NCBI GenBank assembly: GCA_002783205.1
Contig: PFEY01000012.1
Location: 27,463-68,346 of the forward strand
Direction: 5' to 3'
DNA: 40,884 nucleotides
Origin: Rhodobacteraceae bacterium CG17_big_fil_post_rev_8_21_14_2_50_63_15
GTDB taxonomy: Bacteria > Pseudomonadota > Alphaproteobacteria > Rhodobacterales > Rhodobacteraceae
The translations under genes and the position numbers were made by a program. The notes below the pieces were generated by a model, which saw only the letters and a program-made list of their open reading frames with translations, was not told the DNA's origin and did no database searches. Numbering within the stretch: position 1 is the stretch's first letter; each line of letters opens with the position of its first letter. Below are positions 8,048 through 22,373 of the stretch, in pieces.

Positions 8048-8377
8048 ATGGCCCGTGGTCTCACCGTGATCCTTGCGCTGGCGATCGCCGCGCTGACGCT
8101 CTTGCCGTATCCCCCCGGTCCGCCGGGGGTGCAGGGCATGGACAAGCTGGTGCATCTGCTGGCCTTTGCCGCCCTCGCGGCCCCTCTTGCCTGGCGTTAC
8201 CCCAACCACTGGGCGATGGTGGCACTGGCGGCTCTCGCCTATGGTGGGGTAATCGAGATCGTGCAGCCGCATGTCGGGCGCGCTGCGGAAGGGGCGGATG
8301 TTCTGGCCGATGGGCTGGGCGCGTTCGGTGGGGCTTGGTTTGCGGCGCGGCTGGGGCGGGCGTGGCAGACGTTCTGA
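8048..8377 (+). CDS. VanZ-like family membrane protein
   Basis: 109 aa with three to four hydrophobic segments (ARGLTVILALAIAALTLLPY, LVHLLAFAALAAPLAW, WAMVALAALAYGGVIEIVQ and a C-terminal helix). The MDKLVHLLAFAAL motif and the later EIVQPHVGRAAEGADVLADGLGA segment are characteristic of small VanZ-like proteins, whose role is not established outside teicoplanin resistance. The ribosome binding site is GAGGGG. Its last 139 bases overlap the open frame of the DnaE2 remnant on the other strand. Confidence 0.8.
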   Translation: MARGLTVILALAIAALTLLPYPPGPPGVQGMDKLVHLLAFAALAAPLAWRYPNHWAMVALAALAYGGVIEIVQPHVGRAAEGADVLADGLGAFGGAWFAARLGRAWQTF

Positions 8378-8742
8378 GCGCCGGGCAGGGCAAGTCCGCT
8401 CATCGGATCGCTCAGTCGGTCGAGCAGCGCCGAGATATCCTCGATCTCCTCGGCCACCAGATGAACCACGCCCGCTTGCCGCTCGATCCGCCCGGTGACG
8501 CGCAGCATCCGCCCGGCGATCACCGCGCGACGAAAATGATCGAAGACCTTGCGCCAGATCACGACATTGACGACCCCGGTCTCATCTTCCAGGGTGAGAA
8601 AAACCACCCCCTTGGCGGTGCCGGGCCTTTGCCGGACGAGCACCAGACCGGCAACGCTGACGCGTGCGCCGGAATGCGGTTCGTGCAGGCGCGCGGCGAC
8701 AAGGGCGGAGGGCGGTCGGGGCCAGGACAGAGCGTGACTCAT
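8239..8742 (-). pseudogene. DnaE2 C-terminal OB-domain remnant under a LexA box
   Basis: The open frame from the ATG at 8742 encodes 167 aa. Residues 27-110 (VSVAGLVLVRQRPGTAKG, LEDETGVVNVVIW, HLVAEEIEDISALLDRL) match the C-terminal OB-fold of error-prone polymerase DnaE2. The roughly 950 residues of PHP and polymerase domain before it are absent, as is the usual basic KSRDFH-type tail; the frame instead runs on antisense to the VanZ-like gene. A perfect SOS box ends three bases before the ATG, leaving no room for a ribosome binding site. An internal deletion in an imuA-imuB-dnaE2 cassette that kept operator and last domain would explain this. It could be dead or a small repurposed OB protein. 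Confidence 0.7.
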
Positions 8743-8744
8743 GA

Positions 8745-8759
8745 GAACAAAAATAGAAC
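8745..8759 (-). promoter_or_regulatory. LexA (SOS) box
   Basis: On the minus strand GTTC-TATTTTT-GTTC is a perfect match to the alphaproteobacterial LexA operator GTTC-N7-GTTC. It lies three bases upstream of the ATG of the DnaE2 remnant, a spacing seen for leaderless SOS genes. imuA-imuB-dnaE2 cassettes are standard LexA targets in this class. Confidence 0.75.
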
Positions 8760-8833
8760 ACAATGTGAGATGCCGCAACTCTTTCCAAGGCGGGTCGCAA
8801 ATTGCGCTGGCCTGCACTAGATCGCTTGGCTAG

Positions 8834-9196
<363 letters not shown>

Positions 9197-22285: not shown

Positions 22286-22373
22286 GCAAGGGGGTTTCTG
22301 GGGCGCCTGCCGCCTGTCGTTTCGGCATTGCGCGACATTTTTCAGCGTGTTCCTGCCCATTGGGGCCAAAGTG

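Follow-up and report, generated by a model that had tools for sequence, protein, structure and literature searches.

A small LexA-boxed gene of Rhodobacteraceae appears to encode the detached OB domain of a split DnaE2 polymerase

Introduction

The OB domains of DnaE polymerases bind the single-stranded template. DnaE is divided in cyanobacteria, where it is encoded in two distant pieces and the halves are joined by a split intein.

The closest described relative of the system reported here is the ImuA-ImuB-DnaE2 (ImuC) mutasome. According to the available text of the respective papers, the mycobacterial imuA'-imuB and dnaE2 cassettes are split and lie at separate loci (PMC6511836), stand-alone ImuB-C proteins have been described (PMC3765255, PMC6511836), and the D. 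shibae cassette is carried on its 126-kb plasmid (PMC9426580). The accessible part of the survey by Timinskas et al., 2013 (PMC3919608) mentions intein-split DnaE sequences and reports several DnaE2 proteins that lack an OB domain; it holds no mention of an OB domain contributed by another gene. Likewise, the accessible text of four further papers (PMC10421592, PMC6473078, PMC1839093, PMC3290774) contains nothing on an OB domain supplied in trans, and no report of such an arrangement for DnaE2 was found in the literature searched, which consisted mostly of open papers without their supplements.

The locus described below shares with the ImuA-ImuB-DnaE2 mutasome the polymerase family, the presence of imuA and imuB, and LexA-type boxes, but here dnaE2 consists of two genes and, in the genome analysed, the set is found on four contigs instead of in one operon. 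Whereas the mycobacterial cassettes, as described in the text available, are split between genes, the break here falls inside dnaE2, between domains. As in the stand-alone ImuB-C proteins so far as their descriptions go, a C-terminal mutasome domain has become an SOS-linked gene of its own, but that domain belongs to DnaE2 (the OB domain) and not to ImuB. The cores resemble the DnaE2 proteins without OB noted in the accessible part of the 2013 survey. The arrangement also resembles cyanobacterial DnaE in that a DnaE polymerase is found in two distant pieces; in contrast to that system, no intein family was matched by the OB protein (Pfam) or by the one core scanned (NCBIfam), and most of the split cores end in short tails after an HPxALLR motif.

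Results

A stand-alone OB domain of the DnaE2 type

The window, that is, the whole stretch of 40,884 nucleotides that was analysed from a Rhodobacteraceae genome, contains the following features around the gene of interest.

8048–8377, + strand: VanZ-like ORF, convergent with the OB gene and overlapping the 3' end of its ORF
8239–8742, − strand: ORF of the stand-alone DnaE2-type OB protein, 167 aa, start ATG at 8742
8376–8742, − strand: query segment P0001, covering residues 1–122 of the 167 encoded by the OB ORF
8710–8724, − strand: W-P-R-P-P codons, OB residues 7–11, the N-terminal motif of stand-alone OBs that is absent from the fused DnaE2s examined
8745–8759, − strand: perfect LexA/SOS box GTTCTATTTTTGTTC, 2 nt before the ATG and conserved in relatives
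8750–8755, − strand: putative −10-like TATTTT inside the LexA box; the N7 is TATATTT-like in 67 aligned promoters
8773–8778, − strand: putative −35-like TTGCGG, 17 nt from the −10-like hexamer
8873–9196, + strand: 2Fe-2S ferredoxin gene, divergent from the OB gene

An earlier note on this DNA had read the ORF as the C-terminal OB domain of DnaE2 with no polymerase core, and both points were borne out. Residues 15–111 align with positions 944–1040 of the 1047-position NCBIfam error-prone polymerase model PRK05672 (E 2.2e-32), at its C-terminal end only, as compared with E 1.5e-07 for the DnaE1 model PRK05673 and the same protein. The whole score against PRK05672, 112 bits, is far under the model cut-off of 939 because a single domain is present. 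PF01336, an OB-fold family, was the sole Pfam match over its cut-off, and neither the ORF list nor the DnaE2 model revealed a polymerase core within the OB ORF or adjoining it in the window. By its profile matches, the gene is thus a DnaE2 domain and not a DnaE2 polymerase. An AlphaFold (AF2) model of residues 1–122, built on a 46-sequence alignment, is a confident OB barrel with a mean pLDDT of 87.8. Structure databases were of no use for identification: a PDB sequence search returned only marginal RPA14 matches, and the top 50 Foldseek hits of the model were other OB-fold proteins, with DnaE absent among them.

The conserved part of the ORF comprises residues 7–110, as judged from a 46-row alignment with relatives' loci. 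The sequence past residue ~122 lies beyond the position at which most relatives stop, and the last ~45 residues (8239–8376) are antisense to the VanZ-like ORF.

Conservation of the OB gene and its surroundings

For comparison we used 80 related OB loci, the best 80 of 400 confirmed matches, which were picked by similarity to the window's OB and are therefore a biased sample. The OB ORFs chosen in these relatives are 110–149 aa long, with one of 169, and all span the whole OB domain; 43 columns of the 46-row alignment are invariant. The stand-alone proteins are recognizable at both ends when compared with 44 fused sequences (36 from the family, 8 from other families), in which the chain continues from the core into the OB. 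A P.PP motif precedes the barrel in 79 of the 80 stand-alone proteins and in 0 of the 44 fused ones, the region compared being approximate for fused sequences in which the OB motif was not found. Conversely, an RDFH-type ending is present in 43/44 fused sequences and in 0/80 stand-alone OBs, which means that not everything C-terminal was kept. The T-G/S-G ending occurs in only 24 of the 80. One OB (L223, on contig C42 of G110) combines a long N-terminal part of low complexity with a C-terminal stretch, HPRDQSKLLF, that resembles fused proteins.

The median dN/dS was 0.19 and the maximum 0.55 (2834 of 3240 pairs, those with dS <1.5), rough values since synonymous distances between genera look low. 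The stand-alone OB is under purifying selection, and the broken frames in relatives that a plain relic would predict were not seen.

The ferredoxin gene and the OB gene diverge in all 74 related loci of at least 10 kb, and in 71 of them the two are no more than 600 nt apart. VanZ, Usp and DUF5665 genes were not matched beside the OB in the related loci, except for one DUF5665 (L076).

A LexA box over the predicted promoter

GTTCTATTTTTGTTC is the only GTTC-N7-GTTC sequence in the window. Its presence alone proves nothing because 0.82 such boxes are expected by chance over the whole window; its placement is informative because the boxes of relatives occupy the same spot. The earlier claim of a perfect box directly in front of the OB start was thus confirmed. 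A perfect box was found within 250 nt upstream of the matched stretch in 77 of 80 related loci; among 8000 control windows of equal length taken from these loci, 3.1% contain one. Of the three remaining loci, L100 has no box, and L036 and L098 have one with a single mismatch before the OB. The box directly precedes the chosen OB start in 76/80 loci; the gap measures 1–3 nt in 66 loci, among them 59 in which it is exactly 2 nt.

Alignment of 67 promoters on the box showed that TTGC is enriched at −18 to −15 and that the box itself contains a T-rich TATATTT. The −35-like TTGC of the window is one base further upstream than in this alignment. These elements would fit a −35/−10 pair with a spacing of 16–17 nt before the OB gene. 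The transcript is then predicted to start at or beside the ATG, giving a leaderless mRNA, and LexA bound over the −10 would repress it. With GTTC-N7-GTTC in its promoter, the OB gene is a candidate member of the LexA regulon, and we share the earlier view that it may be a damage-inducible small OB protein.

The remaining cassette genes of the window's genome

The genome of the window (G000) is 3.34 Mb in 114 contigs. The DnaE2 model finds three places in it: DnaE1, an N-terminal part of DnaE2 on contig C112, and the window's OB. The core match on C112 reaches position 22326 of 22327, such that the gene is cut by the contig end at residue ~402; the remainder of the core was not found elsewhere in the assembly. 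The genome search for the companion genes located imuB on C96 and imuA on C81; a perfect GAACAAAAAAAGAAC stands at the imuB start, and a perfect GAACATTAAGTGAAC immediately precedes imuA. ImuB shares ~47% identity with fused-type ImuB, and ImuA 39%; ImuA is divergent, scoring only 31 bits against a cut-off of 150 for NF033429. Perfect LexA-type boxes hence stand before imuA, imuB and the OB gene, and a one-mismatch box stands before the core. These are four genes of one cassette on four contigs.

The OB ORF could be a relic, a non-functional C-terminal piece that remained after a deletion within an imuA-imuB-dnaE2 cassette. Such an origin would suit the ~45 aa by which the window's ORF runs past the usual stop, antisense to VanZ, and the incomplete core gene of this assembly, but it is at odds with frames of at least 110 aa that span the OB in every one of the 80 similarity-picked loci, with the conserved spacing between box and start, the low dN/dS and the constant divergent ferredoxin, and with the core, imuB and imuA elsewhere in the same genome. 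We regard a relic as extremely improbable. The earlier note had invoked one deletion inside the cassette, and this part of its interpretation fails on the last two points; the DnaE2-type OB, the LexA box and a possibly inducible protein stand.

LexA-like boxes before split cores

We also scanned the 120 nt before 34 split cores in both orientations, leaving out L026 as this locus starts inside the gene. The best box was perfect in 9 loci, had one mismatch in 22 and two mismatches in 3. Boxes within one mismatch thus precede 31/34 cores and occur in 8.3% of control windows, in which perfect boxes amount to 0.9%. GAAC-N7-GAAT or GAAC-N7-GAAC precedes the core in 12 of the 12 Roseovarius core loci scanned. 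The idea that only the OB is LexA-controlled was discarded on account of both results.

Co-occurrence of OB-less cores and stand-alone OBs

A sample of 149 Rhodobacteraceae genomes, one per genus, was drawn automatically. At first the best 4 and then the best 28 candidates at most were scored per genome and counts were made among the matches listed, so that absences are uncertain. The raw tally was 60 genomes with OB-less core and OB, 70 with fused DnaE2 only, 10 with neither, 2 with core, OB and fused DnaE2, 2 with a core without OB, 4 with an OB without such a core, and 1 with OB and fused DnaE2; at this stage 62 of 64 cores had an OB and 80 of 85 other genomes had none. Four genomes were then moved from stand-alone to fused by their coordinates: in G047 the core stops 16 nt short of a contig end, and the OB occupies the first bases of that same contig, in G115 and G119 the OB abuts core pieces on one contig, and in G173 the OB and a core piece lie near contig ends and there is no box before the OB. 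After this change, a stand-alone OB accompanied 61 of 63 OB-less DnaE2 cores and was missing from 84 of 86 other genomes (Fisher p 9e-37, kinship ignored). The two OB-bearing genomes among the 86 are G082 and G000, the latter with a core truncated by the contig end. As a separate observation, G066 (C1, C4) contains a split set and a fused DnaE2 in one genome.

The exceptions bear on two other explanations. One is that the OB has left the polymerase and acts alone or with other SOS partners, for example as a small ssDNA-binding repair factor. G082, which has the OB (L228, on C4), its box and ImuB and in which no DnaE2 core was found, agrees with this, as do the new N-terminal motif and the separate box of the OB gene; nevertheless, presence and absence of OB-less core and stand-alone OB agree in 145/149 genomes, and the six fused-type Roseovarius genomes have no OB, which renders an independent role unlikely. 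The other is that the truncated core works without any OB, that the OB is kept for another reason and that the two co-occur by common ancestry. Here one could point to the DnaE2s reported without an OB domain in the accessible text of PMC3919608, and to G075 and G094, which have a core and in which no OB was found. These two assemblies are fragmented (~100 contigs in one, ~490 in the other), and of their 73 and 63 first-look candidates only 28 each were scored, so an OB may have been missed, and the changes of form within Roseovarius agree in all pairs, though these are few. We judge an OB-free working core to be very unlikely.

Among 24 Roseovarius genomes, all 13 with a split DnaE2 have the OB, and it is present in 0 of 6 fused and 0 of 4 DnaE2-less genomes; G002 was too incomplete to class. 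Of the 13 split cores, that of G000 is cut and those of G018 and G023 are broken. A DnaE1 tree of 21 of the 24 genomes (G002, G009 and G011 left out) contains three well supported independent switches of form, or five when all branches are counted. The OB follows the core at every switch, its trait having been entered as identical to the core trait, and a sign test on so few pairs cannot be significant. The co-occurrence is in part a matter of shared descent. The nearest sampled relative of the window's genome in this tree, G022, is of the fused type; a search for an OB up to 1.5 kb from its ferredoxin gene found none.

Break point and origin of the split

In fused DnaE2s the chain continues past HPxALLR into the OB, whereas the tail after this motif is 6–44 residues long in 30 of 33 split cores and 53, 61 and 85 residues in the other three. 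The D.D.DF segment, which we take to be catalytic, is present in all 33, and one such core (P0004 of G001) scores 1224 bits with the DnaE2 model against its cut-off of 939. An HPR-type tail like that of fused DnaE2s is kept in 3/33 split cores, as though an OB in front of this tail had been removed.

A quick tree with 77 of the fetched cores places 32 of the 33 split cores in one clade (SH-aLRT 100). The core of G186 falls outside; when all 33 were forced together the likelihood was 40.9 higher (p-AU 0.913). A single origin of the OBs was not rejected (p-AU 0.509) in a tree of 44 rows and few columns, which included 40 of the 80 loci and left out G114 as well as 11 rows, fused or outgroup, that lacked the search motif. 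The trees are compatible with, and would allow, one single split.

In G186 (L216, on C12) the OB follows the core at a distance of ~1.2 kb, on its downstream side, and each of the two has a perfect box; between them lies an opposite-strand gene that presumably encodes a dimethylarginine dimethylaminohydrolase-like protein. This genome is likely an intermediate of the split. Upstream of its ferredoxin gene, G013 (L255:1373), which is of the fused type, carries a −35-like stretch and the box GAACATAATATGAAC. No OB ORF is present upstream of that gene, where only a chance-level match of 26 residues (E 0.57) was found, and the box is likely the promoter relic of a lost stand-alone OB.

We further surveyed the class with 389 Alphaproteobacteria genomes, of which 216 had a match; ~150 of the matches were listed, and no more than 11 candidates per genome were scored. 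Outside Rhodobacteraceae, the OBs among the matches listed lie in frames of ~1000 aa or longer with nine exceptions (G338, G515, G414, G406, G361, G235, G309, G479 and G511). G515 has its OB less than 510 nt from a contig end. G414 was set aside as a candidate split elsewhere in the class, as it reads as a fused gene with a frameshift. Matches were obtained in 831 plasmid records; among the 20 listed, 18 lie in genes annotated as error-prone polymerase and 2 in unannotated records.

Discussion

We consider it very probable that the ORF encodes the OB subunit, acting in trans and under LexA control, of a split error-prone DnaE2 polymerase. Many related marine bacteria appear to encode this polymerase as two separate proteins, and the small gene appears to be a conserved working part of it. 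In the scheme we propose, dnaE2 would have come apart, in one large Rhodobacteraceae lineage, within the linker that joins the catalytic core to the C-terminal OB, leaving a core gene that ends shortly after HPxALLR and a separate OB gene elsewhere. The latter would have gained a start and, over the −10, a LexA box of its own, together with the new W-P-x-P-P motif at the N terminus of its protein. Upon DNA damage and inactivation of LexA, imuA, imuB, core and OB would be derepressed, and the OB would dock non-covalently on the core/ImuB assembly, where it would supply for DNA synthesis the single-strand-template binding that fused DnaE2s would have in cis.

It is conceivable, if rather doubtful, that the OB is a regulatory subunit and not merely a displaced domain, licensing mutagenic synthesis late in a severe SOS response. 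What suggests this is the perfect box in 77/80 loci, located on the −10 of an apparent leaderless promoter, versus the mismatch in 22 of 34 core boxes. The core may be made earlier or at a basal level and be weak until the tightly held OB appears. The OB might also act in trans on DnaE1.

If the OB is indeed a detached subunit, the split may account for part of the OB-less DnaE2s noted in 2013. It would also call for caution in annotation: small OB-fold genes beside ferredoxin in roseobacters, and truncated-looking DnaE2 genes, should not be recorded as fragments. What the OB domain contributes to DnaE-type translesion polymerases is difficult to test where it acts in cis. In these bacteria the domain is naturally detached, has been kept across some sixty sampled genera and carries its own LexA-type box, and its part in lesion bypass, recruitment and fidelity would become testable by adding or removing one small protein.
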